Below are positions 5,102 to 45,181 of a DNA stretch of 50,351 bases, piece by piece. The notes beneath the pieces were generated by a model, which was given only the letters and a program-made list of their open reading frames with translations, made no database searches and had not been told where the DNA came from. The first letter of the stretch is position 1; every line of letters starts with the position of its first letter. The stretch spans positions 1 to 50,351 of the forward strand of contig CAIKAP010000133.1 of NCBI GenBank assembly GCA_903825435.1, written 5' to 3'. A program made the position numbers and the translations under genes. The stretch is from an uncultured Verrucomicrobiota bacterium. GTDB taxonomy: Bacteria > Verrucomicrobiota > Verrucomicrobiia > Palsa-1439.

Positions 5102-7423
5102 ATGTTCATAAAAACTTGGTTTCGCCTCGGTATTCTCGCGGCGATAGCAACGACTGCTTGCGCGGATCCGGCTAACTGTGCAGCAGGAATATTTGCGGCC
5201 GCTAAACTTCAGCCCGCCGATTGGCGCGGCCACTGGATCGGCGCGGATACTAATACCAACCATGGCGCTGTCTATCTGCGGCGAGAAATTGAGATCACCA
5301 AACCGGTGACGCAAGCGACGGTGTTTTTCTGCGGACTGGGATTTTCCGAATTGGCGGTGGACGGAAATAAAATCGGCGACTATGTGATTGGACCGGGGTT
5401 CACAACGTATGACAAGCGCGTGCAGTATCTCGCGTTCGACGTGACGGCGCGGTTCGCGACGACGGGGACCAAGACGCTTGATGTGATTCTTTCCGACGGT
5501 TGGTATGCGTTGGAACGCGATCCGTGGGTCCACAAGTTCGAGAAACGCGTTTACGTGGACAAACCGAAGCTGTTGCTCGACCTCCATCTCCGTCATGCGG
5601 ATGGCTCGGAGACGTTGATCGTTTCCGACGAGAACTGGCGCTGGTCCGACGGCGAGATCACGCGCAGTTGGATTGTACAGGAAGATATTGACCGTCGCAA
5701 AACCGGACGCAATTGGCGGCCGGTCGCGCTCGTGACCGGACCGACGGGTAAACTCGTTTGCCAACTTGAACCGTTCAACCGGATCGTCGAGGAAACACAG
5801 CCGGTCAGCATGAAATTCAACGTTGAGAAGAAATCATGCGTCTGGGATTTTGGCCGCGAGATCAACGGCTGGGTTCGCTTTTGCGCCGCCGGGCCGTCCG
5901 GGACGGAACTCAAGATCACAACGATCCCGACCGAGCCGCGTCCGCGCACCAGCCGGTTCATTCTCGCGGGCACGGGCGGAGAGGAATTGTACGAACCGCG
6001 TTTCTTCCATGCCGGCATGAGGCGAGTGGAGGTGTCCGGGTTGGTCTCGGAACCGGCCACGAACGATCTCGTCGGGTGCCAGATTTCTTCGATGTACACG
6101 CCGTCCGGCAGCTTCCGTTGTTCCGATGAATTGCAAAACTGGCTGAACGATTCCGCGCGACGCACGGTGGTATCGTACACGACATTTCTGCCGAACGATC
6201 CGGTTCGCGAGTGGAAGGCGTGGACGCAGGATATCGAGAACATGTTCCGGTCGGCGGTTTACCTGTTCGATTCGCAGACGATGTACGAGCGATGGCAGCA
6301 CGACCTGCTCGACGGCCAGCGCGCCGACGGCAACTGCCCGAACATCGCACCGGGCCCTTTTTTTGACAACTACAACAGTCCGTGGTGGGGCGGTTGCGTC
6401 GTCTGGTTGCCGTGGCACTGGTATCTTTATTATGGTGACGAGTCGCTGTTGCGTGAAAGCTACCCGGCGATGAAACGGTACGTTGACTATCTCGGCTCGG
6501 TCTCGAAAGATGGCCTGCAAGATTGGGGACTTGCCGACTGGTTGCCCGTCGAGGAAACACCGCGCGCGATCATCAATACACCGGCGCATTTTCTCTATGC
6601 CCAGATTGTCAGCCGCACCGCCACGCTGCTCGGCCAACTCGACGACGCGCGCCGGTACGCCGATGTTGCCGAGAAAATCCGCGCGGCGTTCAACCGAAAA
6701 TTTCTCGATCCTGCCACCGGGATCTACGGTCAACCTGGTTGGAAACCGAAGTGCGGCAACTGGAGACCACCGTTGCCATTGGAGCGATTGCACGAAGTCT
6801 GGTGGACCGGCGACCGTCCCTGCACGCAAGCCGGGCAGGTGCTGCCGTTGGCGCTGGGCATGGTGCCGACGGAACATCGTGCCGCCGTCGAGAAAGCGCT
6901 GCTGCGCGAACTCGCCGCGCACAAAAACCATCTCTCCACCGGTTTTGTCTCGACGCCGTATCTGTTGCAAGTTCTCGCCGATCTTGCGCCCGATGTCGGC
7001 TGGGCGATGACTTCAGCACGCGATTTTCCATCGTGGCACAGCATGACACGCGGCAGCGGCAACGATTTGATGAAAGAAACCTGGGCCGGTGGCCAGGCGT
7101 TAATGCCATCACTCGGCGGTAACATCGCCGCATGGCACACCGAGACGCTCGCCGGTATCCGTCCCGATCCGGACGGTCCCGGCTTCAAGAAAATCATCTT
7201 CAAACCCACCGTCGTCGGTGATCTGCACTGGGTGGAGTGCTGGTTTGATTCCCCGCAAGGCCGGATCGTCAGCAACTGGAAACGCGACGGCAATACATTT
7301 GCCTTCGACGTCACCGTGCCCGTCAACGCCACCGCAAAAGTATTCCTGCCGGAAGAAAACATCGCCCGCGAAGTCGGCCCCGGTCGTAACCATTTTCAAC
7401 ACACCTTGAAAGGAACACCATGA
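5102..7423 (+). CDS. alpha-L-rhamnosidase, GH78 family
   Basis: 773 residues from the ATG at 5102, with AGGA five bases upstream; a GTG at 5099 is the alternative. After a signal peptide comes the rhamnosidase N-terminal sandwich (WRGHWIGAD, VYLRREIEI, GFSELAVDGNKIGD, GPGFTTYDKRVQY). The (alpha/alpha)6 catalytic core includes FLPNDPVREWKAWTQD near residues 360-375, which matches the acid-bearing GH78 block, and a Trp-rich active-site strand near 427-446. A C-terminal beta-domain closes the protein (HTETLAGIRPDPDGPG). It should release terminal alpha-L-rhamnose. The ATGA overlap with the next glycosidase suggests coupled translation. Confidence 0.88.
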   Translation: MFIKTWFRLGILAAIATTACADPANCAAGIFAAAKLQPADWRGHWIGADTNTNHGAVYLRREIEITKPVTQATVFFCGLGFSELAVDGNKIGDYVIGPGFTTYDKRVQYLAFDVTARFATTGTKTLDVILSDGWYALERDPWVHKFEKRVYVDKPKLLLDLHLRHADGSETLIVSDENWRWSDGEITRSWIVQEDIDRRKTGRNWRPVALVTGPTGKLVCQLEPFNRIVEETQPVSMKFNVEKKSCVWDFGREINGWVRFCAAGPSGTELKITTIPTEPRPRTSRFILAGTGGEELYEPRFFHAGMRRVEVSGLVSEPATNDLVGCQISSMYTPSGSFRCSDELQNWLNDSARRTVVSYTTFLPNDPVREWKAWTQDIENMFRSAVYLFDSQTMYERWQHDLLDGQRADGNCPNIAPGPFFDNYNSPWWGGCVVWLPWHWYLYYGDESLLRESYPAMKRYVDYLGSVSKDGLQDWGLADWLPVEETPRAIINTPAHFLYAQIVSRTATLLGQLDDARRYADVAEKIRAAFNRKFLDPATGIYGQPGWKPKCGNWRPPLPLERLHEVWWTGDRPCTQAGQVLPLALGMVPTEHRAAVEKALLRELAAHKNHLSTGFVSTPYLLQVLADLAPDVGWAMTSARDFPSWHSMTRGSGNDLMKETWAGGQALMPSLGGNIAAWHTETLAGIRPDPDGPGFKKIIFKPTVVGDLHWVECWFDSPQGRIVSNWKRDGNTFAFDVTVPVNATAKVFLPEENIAREVGPGRNHFQHTLKGTP

Positions 7424-10245
7424 AACTTGGCGTCCTCGCGCTGACAACCTTGCTCGCTCTGCCGCTTCATGCCGACGACGAAATCAAAACGTTGCTCGAC
7501 CGTTGTTCGGTTACGGTCACGCAAGCGCACGCAGCAGTCGGCGGCTTCGCGACGATGAACAACTCGCCGGTGCTCGGCAACGGTTGTCTCATGGTCACCG
7601 TCGGCAGCGCGTCGAACTCGCTGACGCTTTACCTAGGTAAAACCGATTTCTGGATGGACAAACTCGGTAAAACCGAATGGCAAAGCGGCAACGTCCTCGC
7701 GGGCACGCTCACGATCCGGTTTCCGTCGCTCGCTGGCGCGGCGTTCAAGCAGGCGCAGGACATGCGGTTTGCGGAGACCCGCACCAGCTTCGGCGCGGTC
7801 GAGGTCCGCACCATCACGCCGCACAAAGCCGACAATTTTGTCGTTAACGATATCGTCAACAAGAGTTCCGGTAATGTTCCGGTTGAAATTGAAACGGCCA
7901 CCCAGCCGCACCGGAAGCCGGGAATCGTCTTCGAACTCGACTCTGGCCGCGACGGTGACATCGCGTGGGTGACGCGCAAGACGCCGAAGCCGGAGCCGCA
8001 CGGAGGCGAATTCCGGATGTGGGCTGCTATCGCCACGCGCGTCATTGGTCCCGCCGTCGCTGGCGAGAACACACGGCAGACGTTCACGCTCGCGCCGGGG
8101 CAGATCGCGCGCATCGTGACAAAAATCCACAGTACCGGCCTGCCTGTCACGCCGGATCCGGCGAACCCGCTGCCGTCGACGTTGGGCGCGCTGAAAACGC
8201 TCACGACGGACCAGGCGGAGGCGTCTCTCGCCGGGCACCGCGCGTGGTGGGACGGCTACTGGCGCAAATCCTGGGTGCGGCTCGACGCGGAGCCGCTGGT
8301 CGAGCGCGTTTACTACGGTGCGATGTACGTGCTCGGTTGCGCCGCGAAAGTCGGCCAGTGGCCCGCAGGTTGCAACGGCTGGCCGGTGGACGACGGTGTG
8401 CCGTGGGGTGGCGATTACCACTGGAACTACAACAATCAGGCAACGTTCTACAGCGTCTTCTCGGCGAACCGTGTCGAGTTGAGCGAACCATACGACCGCA
8501 CGGTGAATGCGGCAAATGAGTTTGGCAAGCAACAGGCCGCAGCGAAGAAGGCACCGGGTACACTCTTCTACATCGCGACGGCGCCTGGACATCTCAACGA
8601 GGCGATCACTGTCGACCAGAAGACGCACGCGGTCGAGGCAGCGTTGGTGCAGATCAACCACTGGTATTACACGCACGACATCGAGTGGATGAAGAAGAAC
8701 TACGCGTTCCTCAAGGACGTCGCGGCGTATTGGGACTGGGACCTGTTGCAACACAAACAGGCGGTGCGCGGTGAGTACTATCGCTACGTCATCGCCGACA
8801 GCGCGCCGATGGAACAAGCGGGCCGCGACCGCTTTAACGGCATCACCGGGCTGGCATTTCTCCGACGGTTTTATCGAGGCATGATTGACATCGTCTGCGA
8901 CCTTCACGCTGCCGGGGTCGAGACCGGCTACGGTTCCACCGACCTCGCACGCTGGCAGGATTTTCTTGATCGTCTCAGCGAATACCCGATGAGCTTCGCG
9001 TACGGACGAAAGGTGTTTGCATGGAGCGAACAATCGCTCAACCCGCTATTGACTGAACAGGATTGGATTTTGTACCCGGTGTTTCCCGCCGAACAGGTCG
9101 CGCTAAGTTCCGATCCCGAACTTCTCCGCGTCGCCCGCAATACGCTCGTCATCAAACCGCAATACTACGTTGAGTGGCTGAACAACCCGCCGCAGATTTT
9201 CTCCATCGCCGCCCGCCTCGCGCATCATCCGCCCGAAGTGTTAGAGCGTTTCAAGTGGTACTTCCGTGATCTTGGTATCAACAACTTCAAGAGCGGCGGC
9301 AGCAACACCGGGGGCTGCGGCATCGCCGAGTCCGTCAACAGCATGCTCCTCCAGAGCCACGAAGGTTTCCTCCGTCTCTTTCCCTGCTGGGACCGGCCCG
9401 ATGCGAAGTTCGTCACCATTCGCGCCGTTGGTGCGTTTCTCGTCAGCGCCGAAAAGAAAAACGGCGTCTGTCAGCCGTTCACCGTGCTCAGCGAGAAAGG
9501 CCGCCCGTGCAGCATCCTCAATCCGTGGCCTGGTAAGACGCTGAACGTCAACGGGGCCGAGGTTCACGGCGACCAAGTCTGCATGTTCCCGACCGAGCCG
9601 GGCAAGACCTACACCATCGCTCCGAAAGAACCGCTGCCCGTGTCGCTACCGCACTGGAACGCCGCGCTCTACAAACCCGTTGTCGTTTCCAGTAATCACC
9701 AGCCGCCGGACGAGAAGGACAACTGGGATGCCGCCAAGCTCACCGACGGCACTCGCATCAACACCAAGGCCGGCCATCGCGGCTGGTCGAGCGCGCTTCA
9801 CGACAAACCTGATGCCGCCGAGTGGTTGCAGGTTGACCTCGGCGGAGCCGTTCCCGTGAAGGCGATCAACCTCTGGCCGCTCGACCACGGAGACGCGTGG
9901 CAACACACGCATTGCTCGATGCCGTTCGTCACCAGCGACGAGATTGACCAGTCGTTCGACGGGTTCCCGCTCGACTTCTGCATCCTCGTCTCCCCCGACG
10001 GCAAGAAATGGAGCGTAGTCGCCCAGTGTGAGAACTACCGCAAACCAGTCATCGGTGCCGAGACCTCCGACCTCAAACCCGCCAACGTGACCGGCCCGGA
10101 ACAATTCACCTTTGGCGCTCGCCCTGTCCGCTACATTAAGGTCGGAGTTACGAAGCTGCGTAAGACCCGTTACTTCGGCAAATATGCCATGCAGTTGGCC
10201 GAGATCGAAGCCGTGCGCGACGACGTTATCGAGCCACAACAGTAG
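7420..10245 (+). CDS. secreted six-hairpin glycosidase (GH95-like) with C-terminal F5/8C domain
   Basis: 941 residues. A short signal peptide (KLGVLALTTLLALPLHA) is followed by an N-terminal beta-domain (SPVLGNGCLMVTVGS, LYLGKTDFWMD) like that of GH95/GH65-clan enzymes. The helical core carries PWGGDYHWNYNNQATFY near residue 327 and SGGSNTGGCGIAESVN near 630. Residues about 755-935 form a discoidin (F5/8 type C) module (LTDGTR, EWLQVDLGGAVPVKAINLWP, RYIKVGVTKL) for binding glycan. GH95 enzymes cleave alpha-L-fucose or galactose; the exact family and substrate here are uncertain. It overlaps the GH78 gene by 4 bases and ends the carbohydrate operon. Confidence 0.75.
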   Translation: MKLGVLALTTLLALPLHADDEIKTLLDRCSVTVTQAHAAVGGFATMNNSPVLGNGCLMVTVGSASNSLTLYLGKTDFWMDKLGKTEWQSGNVLAGTLTIRFPSLAGAAFKQAQDMRFAETRTSFGAVEVRTITPHKADNFVVNDIVNKSSGNVPVEIETATQPHRKPGIVFELDSGRDGDIAWVTRKTPKPEPHGGEFRMWAAIATRVIGPAVAGENTRQTFTLAPGQIARIVTKIHSTGLPVTPDPANPLPSTLGALKTLTTDQAEASLAGHRAWWDGYWRKSWVRLDAEPLVERVYYGAMYVLGCAAKVGQWPAGCNGWPVDDGVPWGGDYHWNYNNQATFYSVFSANRVELSEPYDRTVNAANEFGKQQAAAKKAPGTLFYIATAPGHLNEAITVDQKTHAVEAALVQINHWYYTHDIEWMKKNYAFLKDVAAYWDWDLLQHKQAVRGEYYRYVIADSAPMEQAGRDRFNGITGLAFLRRFYRGMIDIVCDLHAAGVETGYGSTDLARWQDFLDRLSEYPMSFAYGRKVFAWSEQSLNPLLTEQDWILYPVFPAEQVALSSDPELLRVARNTLVIKPQYYVEWLNNPPQIFSIAARLAHHPPEVLERFKWYFRDLGINNFKSGGSNTGGCGIAESVNSMLLQSHEGFLRLFPCWDRPDAKFVTIRAVGAFLVSAEKKNGVCQPFTVLSEKGRPCSILNPWPGKTLNVNGAEVHGDQVCMFPTEPGKTYTIAPKEPLPVSLPHWNAALYKPVVVSSNHQPPDEKDNWDAAKLTDGTRINTKAGHRGWSSALHDKPDAAEWLQVDLGGAVPVKAINLWPLDHGDAWQHTHCSMPFVTSDEIDQSFDGFPLDFCILVSPDGKKWSVVAQCENYRKPVIGAETSDLKPANVTGPEQFTFGARPVRYIKVGVTKLRKTRYFGKYAMQLAEIEAVRDDVIEPQQ
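7864..7882 (-). repeat. CCGGAACA motif pair, variant copy
   Basis: The + strand reads AGTTCCGG-TAA-TGTTCCGG: two 8-mers, the first with one mismatch, at the same 11-base spacing as the exact copies in larC and mrdA. It lies inside the GH95-like gene and could be chance on its own. Confidence 0.35.
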
Positions 10246-10576
10246 GGGTGGTGTGCTTTGTCGATAACCCATCCCGGCGAACGCCCCAAAGCCGGCTGTA
10301 ATTGGCGCGTTAACGAAAGGACAACATCGCCGGTCACACACCGTCAAATTTACAAAAGTTCACTTGTCGCTGTCACCGCCGACGGGGAAGACGAGATTCC
10401 AGTTCCGCTCCAGCTTAACTCCATTCGCAACGATTGCGCGAAGAACTTCGATGCCACTCTTGTGTGGGCGGTCAAGGCCGGTTTCGCCGGCGTCGCAGGA
10501 AATCGCGTTCATTATCAGAAGGAGAAAGGAAGTTCTCAACACTGAGCTTTCGGTGTATAAATCAAGTTGCAAACAA
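10246..10576. other. intergenic stretch, no convincing gene
   Basis: 331 bases between the glycosidase and the lipoprotein. Short open frames exist on both strands. The minus frame ending at 10360 gives a protein-like tail (IEVLRAIVANG, ERNWNLVFPVGGDSDK), which may be the relic of a lost gene, but no start, ribosome site or family could be assigned. No tRNA or clear terminator was seen. Confidence 0.4.
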
Positions 10577-10981
10577 ATGAAAGCCTGCACAATTCTCAGC
10601 ATGGTCTTAGTGGTCGCCTTGGCCGTCGGATGCAAACCATCGAGTGAGACCGCTTCTGCAAAAGAGGATCCGTCTGCATTTACGCCATTGACGGGGCGCT
10701 GGGTGCGGCCCGACGGCGGGTACATTCTGATGGTTAACCGCGTTGAGACGGATGGTAAGGTGACGGCCAGTTATTTCAACCCGAACTCGATTCGTGTATC
10801 GCGGGCGCAGGCGTCAGTGGTGGATGGCGTGCTAAAATTGTTCGTCGAGTTGACTGACGAAGGCTATCCTGGTTGTACGTACAAACTGACCTACGACAAA
10901 GCAAATAACCAACTGGCCGGTGTGTACTTTCAGACCGCAATGCAGCAGAGTTACGATATTGTCTTCGAGCGTGCACCATGA
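10577..10981 (+). CDS. small putative lipoprotein
   Basis: 134 residues from the ATG at 10577. The frame stays open upstream to 10364, but the extra residues are Arg-rich and would bury the export signal. The start MKACTILSMVLVVALAVGC looks like a lipoprotein signal with the lipidated Cys at 19, although the lipobox (AVGC) is not ideal. The mature part begins with a Ser/Glu linker and then forms a compact beta-rich domain (LTGRWVRPDGGYILMV, VTASYFNPNSIRVSRA, YKLTYDKANNQLAGVYFQ). That pattern resembles small proteins that report a formula such as lipocalin-like turnover domains, but no family is certain. No strong ribosome site is visible. Confidence 0.65.
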   Translation: MKACTILSMVLVVALAVGCKPSSETASAKEDPSAFTPLTGRWVRPDGGYILMVNRVETDGKVTASYFNPNSIRVSRAQASVVDGVLKLFVELTDEGYPGCTYKLTYDKANNQLAGVYFQTAMQQSYDIVFERAP

Positions 10982-11053
10982 TATGGTAACGGTCGAACCG
11001 GCGCCGCCACCAACCGCTTTTCCTTCTTCTCTACCTCGCGCGTCCGTAATGCG

Positions 11054-13198
11054 CTACCGCCAGACTGATAGGATGCTGGCGTAATCGTCGGTCCAGATGC
11101 GTGTATGCCGGTTTTGTTCCGGTTTCCGCCAGCGCAGATCCGTCAACAGCGGACCGAGGTATGCTTCCTCGCGGCACATCACAGCCCAACTCGATACGAA
11201 CACGCCACGTGCCCGGTTCTCGGCACTCACTGTGTCTTGCTCCTGCACCCGGCACGAGAGACCGGCGTCGCGTGCGAGCGCGGCGATGACCGGCTCCAGT
11301 TTTAGGTGGCGGTTGCTGAAATGGAAGATCAACCAGCCGTCGCGCTCCAAGCGGTCGAGGTACAACCGTGCCGCCTCCCGTGTCAGCAGGTGCATCGGAA
11401 TAGCGTCCGAGCTGTACGCGTCCAGCACCAGCACATCGAACCGCTCCGGCGACCGCTCCAGCGACAACCGAGCGTCGCCAAGCATCACCCTCACTTGGCC
11501 GCGGCAGTCCGCGAGGTACGTGAACAGCCGCGGGTCCCGCGCGATCCGTTCCACCACCGGGTCAATCTCGAAAAACGTCCACGTCTCACCCGGCGCCGCG
11601 TACGCCGCCACCGCGCCCGCGCCGAGGCCGACCGCACCGACTTTCGGCATCGGCCGTCCCGTCCGCCGCCACGCGGCAAACAAGTGGCCAATCGGACCGA
11701 TCCGCGAATAATAGCCGAGCGGCTCCCGTCGCTGGTCGGCTTCCATATTCTGGATTCCGTGCAACGTCGTTCCGTGTTCGAGCCGGTGGAACCGGTCCGC
11801 CACGTCCTTGCGCACCCGGTGGACGCCGAAGAAACTCCGCTCGAGCGCCAGCACCCGTGCCCGCTCGCCCGGCAACCACGTCGCCGCCGCGAACAACGCC
11901 GCCACCGCCAGCCCGAACCGCAGCGACCGTTTCCGCAGCATGAACACCACCGCCGCCGGCACCGCAAGCTTGATCAAGATCGCGTAGCCGGCCATCTCTG
12001 CCGGCCACTGGCGGACCCATTCGCCGAGCGCCCAGCCGCCAACGCCGAGGCCGGCGGGCCACGCGAAGTCCGACCAGCGCGGGCGCTCGATTCTCGATAC
12101 CAGCAGACAGACCAGCGCGACCGACACCGGGTACTCGATCACCCACCGGAACAAAACCGGAGCGAGCAGCGCGTTGAACACGCCGCCGAGCACGCCGCCG
12201 ACCGACACCCACCAGTAGAACTCCGTCAGCCGCTCCGCCGGCGGCCGGTCCGCGGCGAGTTGGCCGTGACATACCATCGCACCGATAAACAGCGCGAGCA
12301 GGTTCCACGCGCCGACCAGCACCACGCTGTGGCCGACCCGCATCCCGTACATCACCGTCAACGGCAACACGACCAACGGCAGCGCCACAGTCATCCAGTG
12401 CGGCTTCAACCACTGGCGTTGCGCGAACACAAGGATGAACGTCACGAGGTAAATCGCCAGCGGCACCACCCACAACAACGGCATTGCCGCCACCTCCATC
12501 GACAGATGCGTCGTCACGCTCAACATCAAGCTCGACGGCGCGAACGCCAGCGCCACCCAGCGCAGCCGTCTTCCCCACACAATCGGTTCCGCCGTTGTCG
12601 CGACAGGCACGTCCCGCCCGCGCCGCCACAACACCACCGCGCACACCGCCACCAGCGCCGCCAGCGCGACGTAGCCCGCGCTCCACCACCACGACTGCGC
12701 GCGCAGCCCCGACATCGGTTCGATCACCACCGGATACGCCAGCAGGCCGATCAAACTGCCCGCGTTGCTGGCCGCGTACAGCCAGTACGGATTCTTCGCG
12801 CCACACGACGCGAACCAGCGTTGCAGCAACGGCGACAACGTCGAGAGCGCAAAGAACGGCAGCCCCACCGTCGCCGTCATCACCAGCAACAACCACGGAA
12901 TCGGGTTCCGCTCCACCGGCGGCGTCCACCCCGCGCCGATCCCCACCGGCAACAACAAGAACGCCGACCCCATCAACGCCACCAGAAAAAGCGCCTGCCG
13001 GCGCGGACTCAGCCGCGTCGCGATCAAATGCGCCCCGCCGTAGCCCACCAGCAGCGCCGCCTGGTAAAACACCATCGCCGTGTTCCACACCGCCGGTGCG
13101 CCGCCGAGCCGCGGCAACACCATCCGCGCAAACATCGGCTCGACGATGAACAACAGCGCCGCCGCCAGGAAGATGGTGATCGCAAAGAGCGCCTGCAT
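11054..13198 (-). CDS. fused membrane transporter/spermidine synthase-like protein
   Basis: 714 residues from the ATG at 13198, where the first membrane helix starts (QALFAITIFLAAALLFIVEP); the frame is open further upstream but gives an Arg-rich leader. The N-terminal two thirds hold about 12 membrane helices with family blocks FARMVLPRLGGAPAVWNTAMV and YAASNAGSLIGLLAYP. The C-terminal third is a cytosolic Rossmann domain (VGLGAGAVAAYA, FFEIDPVVERIA, VLVLDAYSSDAIPMHLLT) like aminopropyltransferases. Such fusions are widespread but their substrate is not established. The gene is divergent from the ferritin-like/receiver gene and contains two CCGGAACA motif copies, one in each orientation. Confidence 0.85.
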   Translation of the reverse strand: MQALFAITIFLAAALLFIVEPMFARMVLPRLGGAPAVWNTAMVFYQAALLVGYGGAHLIATRLSPRRQALFLVALMGSAFLLLPVGIGAGWTPPVERNPIPWLLLVMTATVGLPFFALSTLSPLLQRWFASCGAKNPYWLYAASNAGSLIGLLAYPVVIEPMSGLRAQSWWWSAGYVALAALVAVCAVVLWRRGRDVPVATTAEPIVWGRRLRWVALAFAPSSLMLSVTTHLSMEVAAMPLLWVVPLAIYLVTFILVFAQRQWLKPHWMTVALPLVVLPLTVMYGMRVGHSVVLVGAWNLLALFIGAMVCHGQLAADRPPAERLTEFYWWVSVGGVLGGVFNALLAPVLFRWVIEYPVSVALVCLLVSRIERPRWSDFAWPAGLGVGGWALGEWVRQWPAEMAGYAILIKLAVPAAVVFMLRKRSLRFGLAVAALFAAATWLPGERARVLALERSFFGVHRVRKDVADRFHRLEHGTTLHGIQNMEADQRREPLGYYSRIGPIGHLFAAWRRTGRPMPKVGAVGLGAGAVAAYAAPGETWTFFEIDPVVERIARDPRLFTYLADCRGQVRVMLGDARLSLERSPERFDVLVLDAYSSDAIPMHLLTREAARLYLDRLERDGWLIFHFSNRHLKLEPVIAALARDAGLSCRVQEQDTVSAENRARGVFVSSWAVMCREEAYLGPLLTDLRWRKPEQNRHTRIWTDDYASILSVWR
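11108..11122 (-). repeat. dispersed CCGGAACA motif, in the spermidine synthase-like gene
   Basis: CCGGAACAAAACCGG on the minus strand, near the 3' end of the gene, encoding part of KPEQNR. The same peptide in the same frame is encoded by the copy in mrdA at 32656-32674. Confidence 0.6.
12146..12160 (+). repeat. dispersed CCGGAACA motif, inverted copy
   Basis: The exact 15-mer CCGGAACAAAACCGG on the + strand, so opposite in orientation to the copy at 11108-11122 and to the host gene. It lies in a membrane-helix region and encodes APVLFRW on the minus strand, so it is not tied to one reading frame. Confidence 0.6.
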
Positions 13199-38964: not shown

Positions 38965-39813
38965 CTACCGCCGCCACGCCACGTCCGCCGCCACCGCCGC
39001 AAGGAACACCACACTGATGATCGCGTTCATCCGGAAGAACGCCACGTTCAAACTCACCGGGTCCTGCTTTCGTGCCAGCGCGTGTTGCACAATCAGGCAT
39101 GCCGCAATCACTGCCAGCCCCGCGTAAAACAGCCAGCCCATTCCCGCCACACGGCCGAACGCCAGCAAGGCCGCCACCATCGCCGCGTGCGTTGCGCGCG
39201 CGATCCACAAACTGCCCGCGATGCCGAACCGCACCGGCAACGAGTGCAATCCCAACGCCTTGTCCGCTTCGTGATCCTGCGTCGCGTAAATGATGTCGAA
39301 CCCCGTCAACCACAACACTACCGCCACCGCCAGCACCACCGGCGGCCACGCCAGTTCACCGCGCACTGCCAGCCACGCCCCGACCGGCGCCACCGCCAGC
39401 GCCACGCCGAGAAACACGTGCGACAACGACGTGAACCGCTTCGTTACCGAATAGAAAAACACGATCGCCAGCGCCACCGGCGACAGCGCGAAACAAATCC
39501 GGTTGATGAACCACGTCGCCGCCACAAATCCCGTCGCCGCCACAATCACCACGCCCCACGCCGACGCCAGCGTGATTGCGCCCGACGGCAAGTGCCGTTG
39601 CGCCGTTCGCGGGTTCTGCGCGTCAAACTTGCGGTCCACGATCCGGTTGAATCCCATTGCTGCCGTTCGCGCGCCGACCATCGCCGCCAAAATCAACCCA
39701 AACAACCGCCAGCCCGGCCAACCGCGGGCCGCCACCGTCATTGAGGCCAACGCAAACGGCAACGCAAACACCGTGTGCGAAAAACGGACGAACTCAAGAT
39801 ACTTGCGGATCAT
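38965..39813 (-). CDS. ubiA: UbiA-family polyprenyltransferase (MqnP/UbiA-like)
   Basis: 282 residues with eight or nine membrane helices. The two Asp-rich prenyl-diphosphate sites are FNRIVDRKFDAQNPRT (Asn56, Asp60, Asp64) and DIIYATQDHEADKALGLHSLPVRFG near 170. LPSGAITLASAWG and VFFYSVTKRFTSLSHVFLG are typical of the ubiA-like clade found with futalosine menaquinone genes. It attaches a polyprenyl tail to an aromatic quinone precursor. Whether it serves menaquinone or ubiquinone is not decided by the sequence. Its start overlaps the unknown gene upstream by 4 bases. Confidence 0.88.
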   Translation of the reverse strand: MIRKYLEFVRFSHTVFALPFALASMTVAARGWPGWRLFGLILAAMVGARTAAMGFNRIVDRKFDAQNPRTAQRHLPSGAITLASAWGVVIVAATGFVAATWFINRICFALSPVALAIVFFYSVTKRFTSLSHVFLGVALAVAPVGAWLAVRGELAWPPVVLAVAVVLWLTGFDIIYATQDHEADKALGLHSLPVRFGIAGSLWIARATHAAMVAALLAFGRVAGMGWLFYAGLAVIAACLIVQHALARKQDPVSLNVAFFRMNAIISVVFLAAVAADVAWRR

Positions 39814-40412
39814 TTTGCCGCCCGGTTCATTTCCGCAATAGCTTCGCTTGTGCTATCAAGGAAGTTGGCAAGACGAGTCATGACGTTCTTGAGATTGCGT
39901 AGGTCAACCCGTGTCAACGCATGCAATGTCTTCTGTTGCTTAGTATCGACCGGGTAGCGGAATTCCTGAGCCGATGCATCAACCCTATTGAACTTCGAAA
40001 TGCAGTTCTCTGCCGCTATCATTTCTTTCCCAACTTGCGCGGGGAATAGGCCCTCGATCACAGTACGCGCATCTTCCCATAGTTTCAGTAGGTCGTGGCA
40101 ACCAAGGAGACCGGCGTGTTTGAGAGTACATCTTCGCCCCTCACAGATGATGTCCTTAAGGATCAACTCCAAGTAATGGCGGTAAAGGAATCCTATAGGA
40201 AACATATCAAAATCGGGATAACGAGTCTTCCTTCTGATGGCACACGCTACTACACGGTCAGCCGCTTCCTTGTAGGCGCATGCATAAACACCAAACGTGC
40301 GGTGAGTCATGTCGAGGCGAGCTTCATGTCGAGGGTTCTTCGACGCGACAAACGGTTCATCGCCCGCTTTCGGCCAATTAAGCTTTGGAATGCCCAATGA
40401 TATTTTTCTCAT
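39810..40412 (-). CDS. helical protein of unknown function, HEPN-like pattern
   Basis: 200 residues from the ATG at 40412, with GGAGGAAC upstream; an in-frame extension reaches 40529 but overlaps the kinase gene. The protein is mainly helical. FPIGFLYRHYLELILKDII followed after a short loop by CHDLLKLWEDA resembles HEPN-type proteins, and RRCTLKH fits an Rx4H spacing, although not at the usual place. No named family can be given. It lies 19 bases after the FHA-kinase gene and overlaps ubiA by 4 bases. Base composition is lower in GC than ubiA, as in the kinase gene, so both probably arrived together. Confidence 0.75.
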   Translation of the reverse strand: MRKISLGIPKLNWPKAGDEPFVASKNPRHEARLDMTHRTFGVYACAYKEAADRVVACAIRRKTRYPDFDMFPIGFLYRHYLELILKDIICEGRRCTLKHAGLLGCHDLLKLWEDARTVIEGLFPAQVGKEMIAAENCISKFNRVDASAQEFRYPVDTKQQKTLHALTRVDLRNLKNVMTRLANFLDSTSEAIAEMNRAAK

Positions 40413-40431: not shown

Positions 40432-43400
40432 CTAACCAACTCCAAAAGGCGGCGGCTCTGTCCAAGTTGCCGCCATCTTCTCCAGTTCTCGGCGAACTCC
40501 TTCTGGCCGCAGCCAACCGTAACCGGCACAACCCAGCGTGTATAGCAGGTGTTTGAAGTCGTCTTCGTTAAATTTAGGCTTGCCGATGCGGGTTAGGCCG
40601 TCGTCAGCAACAGGACAGTGCAAGACAAGGAAGTTGCGTAAGTGGGGTGCGGCACTGTCATCCCAATCTGCCATTGGTTTCACATCCAATTCCCAATCCA
40701 GCGTCCACAACCGTAGAATTCCGTCACCGCTTCCCGCCAACGCATATCGGCCATCAATGCTCAGACAAACAGAACGGATTCCATGTGTGTAGTGTTCGAA
40801 AAGAGTTTGAAGGCACCGTCCGCTAACTACTTCCCATAACCGTATTGTATCATCCATACTTCCTGACACCACATACCGACCATCGCTGCTAAAGCATACT
40901 GACGTGACTATATCAGTGTGCCCTCGCAAAACTTGCAGGCACCGCCCAGTGGCCACCTCCCACAACCGAAGGGTTTTGTCTTCACTTCCCGACAACGCAT
41001 ACTGACCATCATTACTCAGACAAACGGAACAAATATGCCGAGTATGTCCCTGAAAAATCCGTAGGCACCGGCCACTGGTTACCTCCCAGAGCCGTAATTT
41101 TTCATCCCAGCTTCCCGACAGCGCATACCGAACATCATCGCTTAGATAGACCGAGGTGATGACGTTTGCGTGTTCCTCGAATGTTTTCAAGCAGCGTCCA
41201 CTTGCCACCTCCCAGAGCCGCAGGGTCTTGTCATAACTTCCCGATAATGCATATCGGTTGTCGGCGCTTAGACAAACGGAAGTGATAATTCCTGTGTGTC
41301 CGTCAAATGTTCGCACGCATTGACCACTCCTAGTATCCCAAAACTGTAGCTTGCTACGGTCTGTCGTGAACACGTAACGACCATCACTACTTAGGCACAC
41401 TAAAGCGCCGCTCTCTCTGAAGGCGGAGAAGCGCATAAATCCCTCAAGAACCCGCACGCATTGTCCACTGGCTACTTCCCACAACCGTAGCGTCTTGTCT
41501 TCACTTCCAGACAACGCATATCGCCCATCAGCACTCAGACAAACCGACAGGATGCCGTGAGTGTGCCCACAGAGAGTCTGTTCAACCCACCCGCAGATGA
41601 ACTCACGTTTGGGTAGGCGAGAGTATAGACTCTGCCATATATCCACTACTGTCTTCGTCCTTTGGTGGCCACAAAGTGCTCTCGCCTGACGGATTGCATT
41701 AACAGTCTCTTGCATACGGTCTTCAGACAAGGCTTGCTTAGCCTGTTCAAGAAAACCCTCAAATTGAACCGTGATCGTATTCAGTTTGGCTGTCGCTACA
41801 ACTTGGCAGAGCATCCAAGGGGCGACGTAACTAGGTTGGTGCACTATTTCCCAGAGGCGTAGCGTCTTGTCTTCACCCCCAGACAATGCATACCGGCCAT
41901 CGCGGCTGAAACATCCTGAATTGATTCCGTCTGTGTGCCCTTCGAATGTTTTCAGGCATCGTCCACTGGTTAGCTCCCAGAGCCGTAATGTGTGATCATT
42001 GCTCCCCGACAGCGCATGCAAACCATCCGTGCTCAGAGAGACAGACCAAACTGAATTAGTGTGTCCCCGCAGAACTCGAAGGCACCGCCCGCTGGCTGTC
42101 TCCCAAAGTTGTAATGCATGATCCTTGCTTGCGGACAATGCATACCGACCGTCGCCGCTCAGACAAGCCGAGAGGTTATATCCTTCGAATGTTTTCAGGC
42201 ATCGTCCACTGGCTACCTCCCAAAGTCGCAGGCCATCAAAACTTCCCGACAAGGCATACCGCCCATCTGCGCTCAGAGAGACTGACAGGACTGCATCACT
42301 GTGTCCCTCAAAAACCCGCACACAGCGCCCACTTGCCACTTCCCACAACCGCACCTTGTGATCTGTGCTCCCCGATAAAGCATACCGGCCATCATCGCTC
42401 AGAGAAACAGAGCAGATCAAAATACCCTTACCTTGAAAAACACGGAGACACCGTCCACTGGTTACTTCCCATAGTCGCAGGCCGCCACTACTTCCGGACA
42501 AGGCATACCGCCCATCGCTGCTCAGACACACCGACATGACCCAATCAGTATGGCCTTCGAAAATCCGGAGGCACCGCCCGCTGCCTACTTCCCATAGTCG
42601 CACAGTCTTGTCATAACTTCCGGACAAGGCATACCGTCCATCGGTACTCAAACAGACCGAAGACACGCGTTTTGTGTGACCCTCAAAAGTTCGCAGGCAG
42701 CGACATGACCAAGCGAGAGAACTTTGGGCTAAAGCTAGTAGTGTGTCGATTCCCGGATGCTGGTTGCTCGACTTCCCTAAATCGGTCAACAGTCCAACTG
42801 TTTCTTCGGCATCACCACTCTCAAGTTTTACTTGGGCCACCATCAGTGTGGAATACCATGTTGGCGAATTCACACCAGCCTTGCGCAATCGCCACACAAG
42901 TGCCCAATCATCAGTTCGGGCGTTGCGCCATTCGTGCAATCCGGAGTTGTAGATTGATTCCAAGTGTTGCGGGTCCACCTTGAGCGCCTCTTGCCAAGTT
43001 TGTTCGGCCTGTTCTGTCCGTCCCAAGTCTAACAAGGAGAGCGCACGATTGTTCAGGCTGTCTGCCAGATGCTCGGTGAGCTTCGGCTCTGGCCGGGCAT
43101 ACGGTTGACCGCCCTGAGTTTCATAGATCGCTAAGAGTGCGGTTGCGATTTCCAACATGTTCTTGGGGCGGTCTGCGGGACGAAATTGGAGGCAATGTTC
43201 AAGCAACTGTGCCAACTGCTTCGGCATCCTGATCGGAAGTTTCCGCCCGAATAATCCCCGGTGCTCCTTTAGAACCTGTCCAGCTTGGAAACCATATTGC
43301 CAAGTGATTTGGCCGGTGAACATGTGCAGCACTGATACGGCCCAACTCCAGACATCGGTGCTACGACTCAATTTGACGCGCTCTTCACTTGGGACACCTT

Positions 43401-44373
43401 CGGCACGTTGCTTGGCCGCCTCAACTTGCTCCGGCGAACAGTACGGGAGGGTGAAGTTGCCGGCCATCGTGACCAAATTGCCATCGCCAGTGGTGATGTT
43501 CTCCGTAACAACCGGTTTTGACCTCGCCAAGCCGAAGTCCGACACCTTGGCGATGCCGTCGGGGGTCATGAGGACGTTGAGTGGTTTGACATCTTGGTGA
43601 ACGATGCCTTGTTCATGTGCGGCGTGGAGCCCCCATGCAAACTGGATGGCCACATCGAGAATCTGTTCGAGCGTTGTCAGTTTCTTCTGGGCGATCCACT
43701 GGTGAAGCGTGCCGCCGGAGACGTACTCGGCGAAGATGCGCGGGATGCCGCCGATGGTGCGAACGTAGTGGCACTGGACGATGTTGGGATGGAGGTCGAG
43801 GTTGACCCACGTTTCGGCTTCGCGGATGAAGTTCTCGACTGCCTTTTCGTCATCGAATAACTTTGGCAGTGGACTTTTGACCGCCAAGTCCATGTTCCAG
43901 CTTTTGTGGTGCACCTTATAGACCTTGCCGAATCCTCCTTGTCCGAGCAGGCCGGTCACTTCATAGATGCCGAGGATGGTGTCGCCGACCTTCCATTCTA
44001 CCGTCGCAACAGTCTCACCGAACGCTTCCTTGAGCACACCGGAAACGGAAGTCGTGTCCGCCGACTCGAACAGGAACACCACCTTGCCTTCCGCGCCAAA
44101 TTCGATTTTGTCGTTCGGTTGAAGGGGTGCCGGTGCGCTGAGCTTGTGGCCGTTGACGAAAGTGCCGTTGCGGGATTGCAGGTCAATCAAGTACAGCTTC
44201 CCGTCTTTACCGACTGCAACCTGCGCGTGCTTGCGCGAGACGAGCGTGTGCGAGATGACCAACTCCGATTCCTTCGGGTCGCGACCAATGACAAGTCCCT
44301 TGGTCGGGATTGCCACGCGCATTCCCGACATTTCACCAACCTGCCCAATCAGATAGCCAACGATCTCGCTCAC
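40432..44373 (-). CDS. FHA-Ser/Thr kinase-TPR protein with two WD40 propellers
   Basis: 1,313 residues from the GTG at 44373; a TTG at 44415 would add 14. Order: FHA domain about 18-105 (VIGRD, SRKHAQV, NGTFVNG); Ser/Thr kinase about 135-408 with GQGGFG at 144-149, Lys166 in LAVK, catalytic loop VHQDVKPLN (HQD replaces the usual HRD, so Arg is missing) and DFG at 279-281; TPR-like helices about 434-545; seven WD40 repeats; a helical linker of about 85 residues; seven more WD40 repeats; and a tail (HLLYTLGCAGYGWLRPEGV). No membrane helix is seen. It probably phosphorylates a partner in a phosphothreonine-linked assembly. Composition looks lower in GC than radC. Confidence 0.9.
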   Translation of the reverse strand: MSEIVGYLIGQVGEMSGMRVAIPTKGLVIGRDPKESELVISHTLVSRKHAQVAVGKDGKLYLIDLQSRNGTFVNGHKLSAPAPLQPNDKIEFGAEGKVVFLFESADTTSVSGVLKEAFGETVATVEWKVGDTILGIYEVTGLLGQGGFGKVYKVHHKSWNMDLAVKSPLPKLFDDEKAVENFIREAETWVNLDLHPNIVQCHYVRTIGGIPRIFAEYVSGGTLHQWIAQKKLTTLEQILDVAIQFAWGLHAAHEQGIVHQDVKPLNVLMTPDGIAKVSDFGLARSKPVVTENITTGDGNLVTMAGNFTLPYCSPEQVEAAKQRAEGVPSEERVKLSRSTDVWSWAVSVLHMFTGQITWQYGFQAGQVLKEHRGLFGRKLPIRMPKQLAQLLEHCLQFRPADRPKNMLEIATALLAIYETQGGQPYARPEPKLTEHLADSLNNRALSLLDLGRTEQAEQTWQEALKVDPQHLESIYNSGLHEWRNARTDDWALVWRLRKAGVNSPTWYSTLMVAQVKLESGDAEETVGLLTDLGKSSNQHPGIDTLLALAQSSLAWSCRCLRTFEGHTKRVSSVCLSTDGRYALSGSYDKTVRLWEVGSGRCLRIFEGHTDWVMSVCLSSDGRYALSGSSGGLRLWEVTSGRCLRVFQGKGILICSVSLSDDGRYALSGSTDHKVRLWEVASGRCVRVFEGHSDAVLSVSLSADGRYALSGSFDGLRLWEVASGRCLKTFEGYNLSACLSGDGRYALSASKDHALQLWETASGRCLRVLRGHTNSVWSVSLSTDGLHALSGSNDHTLRLWELTSGRCLKTFEGHTDGINSGCFSRDGRYALSGGEDKTLRLWEIVHQPSYVAPWMLCQVVATAKLNTITVQFEGFLEQAKQALSEDRMQETVNAIRQARALCGHQRTKTVVDIWQSLYSRLPKREFICGWVEQTLCGHTHGILSVCLSADGRYALSGSEDKTLRLWEVASGQCVRVLEGFMRFSAFRESGALVCLSSDGRYVFTTDRSKLQFWDTRSGQCVRTFDGHTGIITSVCLSADNRYALSGSYDKTLRLWEVASGRCLKTFEEHANVITSVYLSDDVRYALSGSWDEKLRLWEVTSGRCLRIFQGHTRHICSVCLSNDGQYALSGSEDKTLRLWEVATGRCLQVLRGHTDIVTSVCFSSDGRYVVSGSMDDTIRLWEVVSGRCLQTLFEHYTHGIRSVCLSIDGRYALAGSGDGILRLWTLDWELDVKPMADWDDSAAPHLRNFLVLHCPVADDGLTRIGKPKFNEDDFKHLLYTLGCAGYGWLRPEGVRRELEKMAATWTEPPPFGVG
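40690..42710 (-). repeat. 14 WD40-coding repeats of about 125 bases in two blocks
   Basis: Unit consensus at protein level: RCLRxFEGHTxxVxSVCLSxDG then RYALSGSxDKTLRLWEVASG. Seven units lie at about 41840-42710 and seven at about 40690-41580, separated by a non-repeat linker of about 260 bases. Units are similar at DNA level too (for example CTTCCCGACAACGCATA-like strings recur), so recombination between units is likely. Unit 5 of the first block and unit 2 of the second are irregular. Confidence 0.9.
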
Positions 44374-44434
44374 GCCCCGTGATTGTAGCCAGCCGTTCCA
44401 ATCGTCGCCAGCCAAAACCGGAACATGGCGCCGG

Positions 44435-45181
44435 TCAGAGCAGGCCGATTTCCTTGAGGCTGACGAAGTCAGTGTCGCGTCCGGCGGTGCGGCGGCCGAG
44501 GATGATGTGGTCGTGAACGTTGATGCCGAGCAGTTCGCCGGCTTTGACGAGGCGCTTGGTGATGGCGATGTCTTCGCTCGACGGCGTCGGGTCGCCGCTG
44601 GGGTGGTTGTGCGCCAGAATCACGTAGGCGGCGGAGGCGGTGATGGCATCCTTGAAGACTTCGCGTGGCTCGACGATGCTGGCGTTGAGTGAGCCGAGCG
44701 AGACGGCGCAGGTCTTGATGAAGGCGTTCTTGGTGTTGAGGAGGATGACGCGGAACGATTCACGGTCGAGCAGCCGCATCTCCTCGCGCACCAGTTCGGC
44801 GGCGTCGGCCGGCGTGGTGATGATCGGCTGGCGTTCGTGCACGCGTTCCCGCAAATGGCGCGCCAGCGTGAACGCGGCCTTCAGTTGGACGGCCTTCGTC
44901 TGGCCGACGCCTTTGACTTTCGCCACTTCGCCAAGCGGCGCGCGCGCCAGCGCATCGAGCGTGCGGAACTTCTTGATGAGTTCCTGAGCGACCTGTACCG
45001 CGGACATCCCCTTCGTGCCGGTGCGCAACAGGATCGCGATCAACTCGGCGTCGCCCAGCGCTTCCGGACCAAGTCGCGCGAGCCGTTCGCGGGGACGATC
45101 ATCCGCCGGCATGTCGCGGATCATGTAACGGAATTCCGGTCGGGCCTCGCCGATTCGCGGACGGGATTGGTCTTCGTTCAT
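44435..45181 (-). CDS. radC: RadC family JAB-domain protein
   Basis: 248 residues. An N-terminal helix-hairpin-helix part (RERLARLGPEALGDAELIAILL, VKGVGQTKAVQLKAA) precedes the JAB/MPN domain with the metal motif HNHPSGDPTPSSED near 193-206. GSLNASIVEPREVFKDAI is the usual block before it. The name suggests DNA repair, but the role is still unclear in bacteria. Its start overlaps the hflX stop by 4 bases. Confidence 0.95.
   Translation of the reverse strand: MNEDQSRPRIGEARPEFRYMIRDMPADDRPRERLARLGPEALGDAELIAILLRTGTKGMSAVQVAQELIKKFRTLDALARAPLGEVAKVKGVGQTKAVQLKAAFTLARHLRERVHERQPIITTPADAAELVREEMRLLDRESFRVILLNTKNAFIKTCAVSLGSLNASIVEPREVFKDAITASAAYVILAHNHPSGDPTPSSEDIAITKRLVKAGELLGINVHDHIILGRRTAGRDTDFVSLKEIGLL

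Follow-up and report, generated by a model that had tools for sequence, protein, structure and literature searches.

The stretch examined here, called the window, comprises 50,351 nucleotides of contig CAIKAP010000133.1 from an uncultured bacterium of the Verrucomicrobiota (assembly GCA_903825435.1). Two genes of this window, one for a large Ser/Thr kinase carrying WD40 repeats and the other for a small HEPN-like protein, D1, sit exactly between radC and ubiA. The features of the region are given below, with amino acid (aa) ranges in the protein and the basis of each assignment; L013 and L014 are loci encoding relatives of the kinase protein.

40432..44373, minus strand: FHA-kinase-TPR-WD40(7)-linker-WD40(7)-tail protein, 1313 aa, GTG start (Pfam, blade count, start alignment with L013 and L014)
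44095..44292, minus strand: FHA domain, aa 28-93, phosphothreonine-binding motifs intact (Pfam FHA, E=4e-20; motif reading)
43162..43965, minus strand: Ser/Thr kinase domain, aa 137-404 (Pfam Pkinase, E=5e-39; catalytic residues)
43591..43599, minus strand: HQD catalytic triplet, aa 259-261 (sequence reading, family alignment)
42715..43080, minus strand: TPR-like helices, aa 432-553 (Pfam TPR_1, E=3e-7; model helices of low confidence)
41845..42705, minus strand: WD40 propeller A, predicted seven-bladed, aa 557-843, 28 strands (blade count, AlphaFold2 model)
41617..41820, minus strand: predicted three-helix linker, aa 852-919 (AlphaFold2 model; identity to relatives 11-37%)
40687..41601, minus strand: WD40 propeller B, predicted seven-bladed, aa 925-1229, 28 strands (blade count, AlphaFold2 model)
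40435..40686, minus strand: conserved C-terminal tail (GYGWLRPEGVRRELEKMA), a family signature with no Pfam model (family comparison, Pfam scan)
39810..40412, minus strand: D1, 200-aa HEPN-like partner (follows the kinase gene; homologue comparison)
38965..39813, minus strand: ubiA, downstream edge of the insertion site, outside the system (adjoins radC directly in a genome of the same genus)
44435..45181, minus strand: radC, upstream edge of the insertion site, outside the system (annotation, locus comparison)

The kinase gene occupies a single open frame on the minus strand, and the opposite strand is rich in stop codons. The automatic open reading frame (ORF) begins upstream, at TTG 44415, and GTG 44373 was chosen as the start because the starts of the relatives in L013 and L014 align there. 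The first-pass annotation had read the product as one chain joining an FHA domain, a Ser/Thr kinase, TPR helices and WD40 repeats, which is borne out by the Pfam matches listed above and by a WD40 match of E=1.7e-132. The protein is soluble, and no transmembrane segment was found along its length, the maximal hydropathy over 19 residues being 1.07.

In another genome of the same genus (G001), the cassette is missing and radC runs four bases into ubiA (GTGA). In the window, D1 starts 19 bp past the kinase stop codon, and its own stop codon overlaps the ubiA start (ATGA). The G+C content of third codon positions (GC3) is 0.575 in the kinase gene and 0.527 in D1, compared with 0.72-0.83 in radC, ubiA, hflX, mreB, mreC and a porin-like gene. 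Because the insertion is precise relative to G001 and GC3 is far lower than in these six neighbours, the kinase gene and D1 are a foreign, acquired cassette. The order kinase-D1-ubiA is also present in a second genome (G003), with different genes upstream; L013, a contig of a Verrucomicrobiia metagenome-assembled genome, is the same locus. Seven more ubiA loci were recovered in the taxonomic family, and all lack the pair. In the window (44382-44387, minus strand) and L013 (5986-5991, plus strand) alike, a TACAAT box stops 8-9 bases short of the kinase start codon, which suggests a shared promoter whose mRNA would be leaderless or nearly so.

The WD40 region contains 14 blades, seven ending at aa 594-841 and seven at aa 965-1223. 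An AlphaFold2 model of aa 410-1313, built from two aligned sequences, has 28 strands in each of two sets, spanning aa 557-843 and aa 925-1229. Each set opens with a single strand, continues through six complete blades and ends in three strands that close the ring, the usual WD40 overlap closure. Both propellers are thus predicted to close, with 7 x 4 strands each, in agreement with the earlier proposal of 14 repeats arranged 7 + 7 around a helical linker. Three helices lie between the propellers in the model, and three more in the tail. The propeller blocks are mostly modelled with a predicted local distance difference test score (pLDDT) of 80-94, lower in blade 9, and confidence is low in the TPR region, linker and tail; the predicted template modelling score (pTM) of 0.40 means that the model does not fix the domain arrangement or the mutual placement of the propellers. 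The best solved structures found by Foldseek were 2ymu, a highly repetitive propeller, followed by full-length Apaf-1 (3shf), and 1nr0, a two-propeller Aip1 homologue, ranked lower.

The catalytic loop was confirmed as HQDVKPLN (aa 259-266), with HQD in place of the HRD of RD-type kinases. The P-loop (GQGGFGKV), the lysine (DLAVK), the alpha-C glutamate (IREAE), the catalytic Asp and Asn and the DFG motif (SDFGLA) are all intact, as are the FHA motifs IGRD, SRKH, SRNGT and FVNG. Since every other catalytic residue is kept, the protein is probably an active non-RD kinase; it may, as suggested in the first-pass annotation, be constitutively active through its HQD loop. HQD is not peculiar to the window gene; it is a trait of the family, found in seven of nine members, with HRD in L015 and HLD in L040. 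Among six further kinases encoded in the window genome, four have HRD, and the other two HCD and HLD. In the L040 member (6942-10739, plus strand), GFG replaces DFG and the P-loop is degenerate, so that this protein is probably a pseudokinase.

Blades within the window protein share a mean identity of 0.61, and their identity to the blades of relatives is 0.47-0.53; within-protein identity is likewise high in L013 (0.62) and in the second L039 protein, L039b (0.67). When the whole blade set is compared, 12 of the 14 window blades have their best match in their own protein, with one tie and one exception. Between the window and L013 or L014, the kinase domains are 73% identical and propeller B 43-45%. 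Blades closest to those of their own protein, beside kinases that stay so similar, indicate fast turnover of the recognition part. The blades evolve in concert, which suits a recognition surface exposed to shifting selection, a view put forward for repetitive propellers of prokaryotes (PMC9218822), though gene conversion alone could yield the same pattern. Recent amplification of blades in the window gene was considered and rejected, the blades being only about 61% identical.

The architecture is not unique, as the same core is present in eight further proteins: those of L013, L014, L015 and L016, two copies in L039 (genome G544), and one each in L040 (G582) and L041 (a Nostoc plasmid). All members share the order kinase, TPR, propeller, helical linker and propeller, and the tail with GYGWLRP is kept in every member except L040. 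L013 has 7 + 6 blades, and the first propeller is shortened in the Nostoc protein. The N-terminal FHA domain is limited to the window, L013 and L014; L016 and L039 have a zinc-ribbon-like N-terminus instead (Pfam scores under the cut-off), and the L015 and L041 members have no extra domain before the kinase. The FHA domain is one of several swappable N-terminal modules. In L041, the gene next to the WD40 kinase encodes an FHA-kinase, so that the FHA domain fused in the window protein occurs there in trans. The family is rare and patchy, being found in 5 of 384 genomes of the class (window genome included), in three copies elsewhere in the phylum (two in genome G544, one in G582), and once on a mobilizable Nostoc plasmid; only 1 of 149 genomes in the class of G544 carries it. 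A search of IMG/VR viral contigs with the tail of the kinase protein gave no confirmed relative. This rarity bears out the suggestion that the arrangement with an N-terminal FHA domain is less usual.

The two WD40-kinase copies of L039 (3456-7100 and 11696-15358, both minus strand) are 65% identical. Between them lie a DUF2971-like gene, a gene of unassigned family and another kinase with repeats, and beside them an FHA-kinase and a PP2C-like phosphatase. A gene of unassigned family at 10903-11709 (minus strand) overlaps the end of a WD40-kinase gene and has a GNISKHN motif but no Pfam or PADLOC match. A PDC-S31 gene adjoins the kinase gene in L014. In L015, the gene after the kinase carries RNSIVHG, which fits the HEPN Rx4-6H signature with a polar residue after the Arg (PMC3710099); comparison of this gene with D1 revealed no relationship.

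D1 is 61% identical to its L013 counterpart. No family in Pfam, NCBIfam or PADLOC describes it, and a profile search against the PDB gave nothing significant. Plasmid records with a relative of D1 number 223; among the genomes of the class, 9 of 384 have one, and the phage records searched yielded none. Seven residues are invariant across 26 D1 sequences: Pro72, Glu82, Leu83, Lys86, His106, Arg152 and Tyr153, the last in FRY. The motif order ExxxK, HDL, FRYP matches that of HEPN (PF05168) proteins. An hhalign comparison with HEPN aligned these three motifs (P=1e-4, probability 57%), with two controls giving P=0.45 and 0.26 (probability 0.1-0.2%); Pfam HEPN matches were weak and limited to 5 of the 26 sequences.

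The plasmid neighbourhoods of D1 relatives were sampled at 19 hand-picked loci (L061-L066, L074-L086). In six of them, a large gene on the same strand lies 13-106 bp upstream of the D1 relative, encoding GajAB (Gabija), SduA (Shedu), PDC-S31 (DUF2971), PDC-S33 (RelA/SpoT), a DUF6035 protein or a Tle1-like lipase. In three others (L080, L082, L083) the D1 relative is fused into a larger protein, and at most of the remaining loci the upstream neighbour is a small ORF or is missing. Known or candidate defence genes thus precede D1 in four of six cases, compared with 3 of 20 other upstream genes taken as controls on the same plasmids (one-sided P=0.028). As a shared accessory gene, the D1 family may be more novel than the kinase protein. 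At about 5.3-13.2 kb of L071 (genome G084), two copies of a D1 relative lie about 4.9 kb apart, both beside the same gene resembling a transposase, the arrangement that duplication of a mobile element would give.

The explanation to which we incline, with slightly less than even confidence, is that the kinase gene and D1 make up a conflict module of two genes gained by horizontal transfer and most likely directed against phage or other mobile elements. It is favoured because of the mobility of the cassette, its presence/absence polymorphism, the blade turnover and the neighbours. The ligand, the direction of regulation, the output and the immune role in the following scheme are what we infer. 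The two propellers would serve as a soluble sensor for a ligand that stems from an invader or from damage, and the TPR and linker helices would relay binding to the HQD kinase, which would phosphorylate itself and partners. The FHA domain could then dock the resulting phosphothreonines and thereby drive assembly or recruitment, and the output would come through the co-encoded HEPN-like D1, which phosphorylation or binding would hold back or set free. Several observations weigh against this explanation. D1 keeps the Arg of FRYP but has no conserved His 5-7 residues on, which makes RNase activity doubtful, as the Rx4-6H histidine is missing. Its AlphaFold2 model (two sequences) had a pLDDT of 46 and was unusable. 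The excess of defence genes ahead of D1 is modest and, coming from a hand-picked sample, only suggestive. The pairing of kinase and D1 is seen in two genomes (two genera) of one family, which may reflect a single event, and the remaining neighbours in the window are housekeeping genes. D1 is a conserved partner behind the kinase in these two genomes; the neighbours of the other relatives differ: a convergent DUF2971 gene in L014, none seen in L016 and L040, and the FHA-kinase in L041.

The absence of D1 or any HEPN-like gene beside the kinase at no fewer than four of the seven relative loci (L014, L016, L040, L041), together with the often solitary occurrence of D1 relatives in Verrucomicrobia, suits a different and quite possible explanation, to which we give less credence. 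The protein may be an ordinary accessory signalling kinase whose propellers sense an internal metabolite or complex and whose kinase tunes stress or growth, with D1 as an unrelated hitchhiker; kinases fused to WD40 or TPR repeats abound in Planctomycetota and Cyanobacteria, and none has been shown to act in immunity (PMC5587647, PMC11032199). However, such a kinase would not lead one to expect a cassette present in one genome and missing from another of its genus, its foreign composition, the rapid turnover of its blades or the recurring candidate-defence neighbours. The gene order, enzyme first and HEPN-like protein second with 19 bp between, would also fit a toxin-antitoxin-like stabiliser in which D1 is a HEPN toxin silenced through phosphorylation by the upstream kinase as antitoxin. 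MNT-HEPN pairs have the same order, a modifying enzyme preceding the HEPN toxin, and silencing by modification has been proposed for them (PMC3710099); the invariant Tyr of FRY and the plasmid-rich distribution of D1 point the same way. This is nevertheless improbable, as D1 also stands alone or behind enzymes other than kinases (Shedu nuclease, Gabija) and lacks the Rx4-6H histidine, and a 14-blade sensor far exceeds the needs of an antitoxin. Regulation of the adjacent menaquinone-pathway gene ubiA by the kinase and D1 is very improbable: in each pair-bearing genome the stop codon of D1 overlaps the ubiA start, suggesting translational coupling, but the seven ubiA loci without the pair and the location of all other kinase relatives elsewhere speak against it.

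The kinase and D1 might even represent a new class of immune module, with a non-RD sensor kinase, a fast-evolving twin-propeller receptor, a phosphothreonine-reading N-terminus and the HEPN-like effector D1 as a plug-in shared with Gabija, Shedu and several candidate systems, although we consider this broader claim unlikely. Bacterial kinase-WD40 proteins are abundant, yet their ligands and signalling targets are almost unknown. With a mobile member that another genome of the genus cleanly lacks and that has a defined partner, the question becomes testable on two genes. Should D1 prove to be an accessory generally shared by unrelated defence operons, it would be an unnamed part of bacterial immunity and merit a study of its own.

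PADLOC matched the window kinase to mad6 of MADS (E=4e-53, aa 121-438) and also to PD-T4-6. Membership in either system was rejected, since the similarity is restricted to the kinase domain, and no other MADS gene was found beside the window kinase, its neighbours being radC, hflX, ubiA and D1. As stated in the first-pass annotation, kinase-WD40 proteins are known in PVC bacteria and cyanobacteria. Fusions of a kinase with WD40 or TPR repeats are frequent in Planctomycetes and Cyanobacteria (PMC5587647, PMC11032199). The window protein resembles them in its kinase placed before C-terminal repeat arrays and in its scattered distribution, but adds an FHA domain before the kinase and combines TPR with two full propellers; it also has no transmembrane helix, and comes with a conserved tail and a HEPN-like partner gene. 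No paper describing the FHA-kinase-TPR-twin propeller architecture was found in the literature. WRAP propeller proteins (Dunin-Horkawicz, 2014) have repetitive blades and have been proposed to act in prokaryotic innate immunity, as cited in PMC9218822. The likeness lies in repetitive WD40 blades turned over within a gene, with 2ymu as the top structural match. However, WRAP proteins have a TIR or caspase core and near-identical blades, whereas the window protein has a kinase core and blades that differ from one another, at 61% mean identity. Apaf-1 and fungal HET-type NOD-like receptors likewise place a WD40 sensor on a signalling core, in line with the second rank of 3shf, but the window protein has a kinase core and no NTPase or oligomerisation domain. 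Plant immune receptors typically carry non-RD kinases, a parallel offered only as an analogy. The KEN nuclease of IRE1 and RNase L is a HEPN domain (PMC3710099), so that a kinase is coupled with a HEPN-type module in these proteins as well; in the window the HEPN-like partner is encoded by a separate gene and is without the canonical catalytic His, and the comparison is one of architecture.

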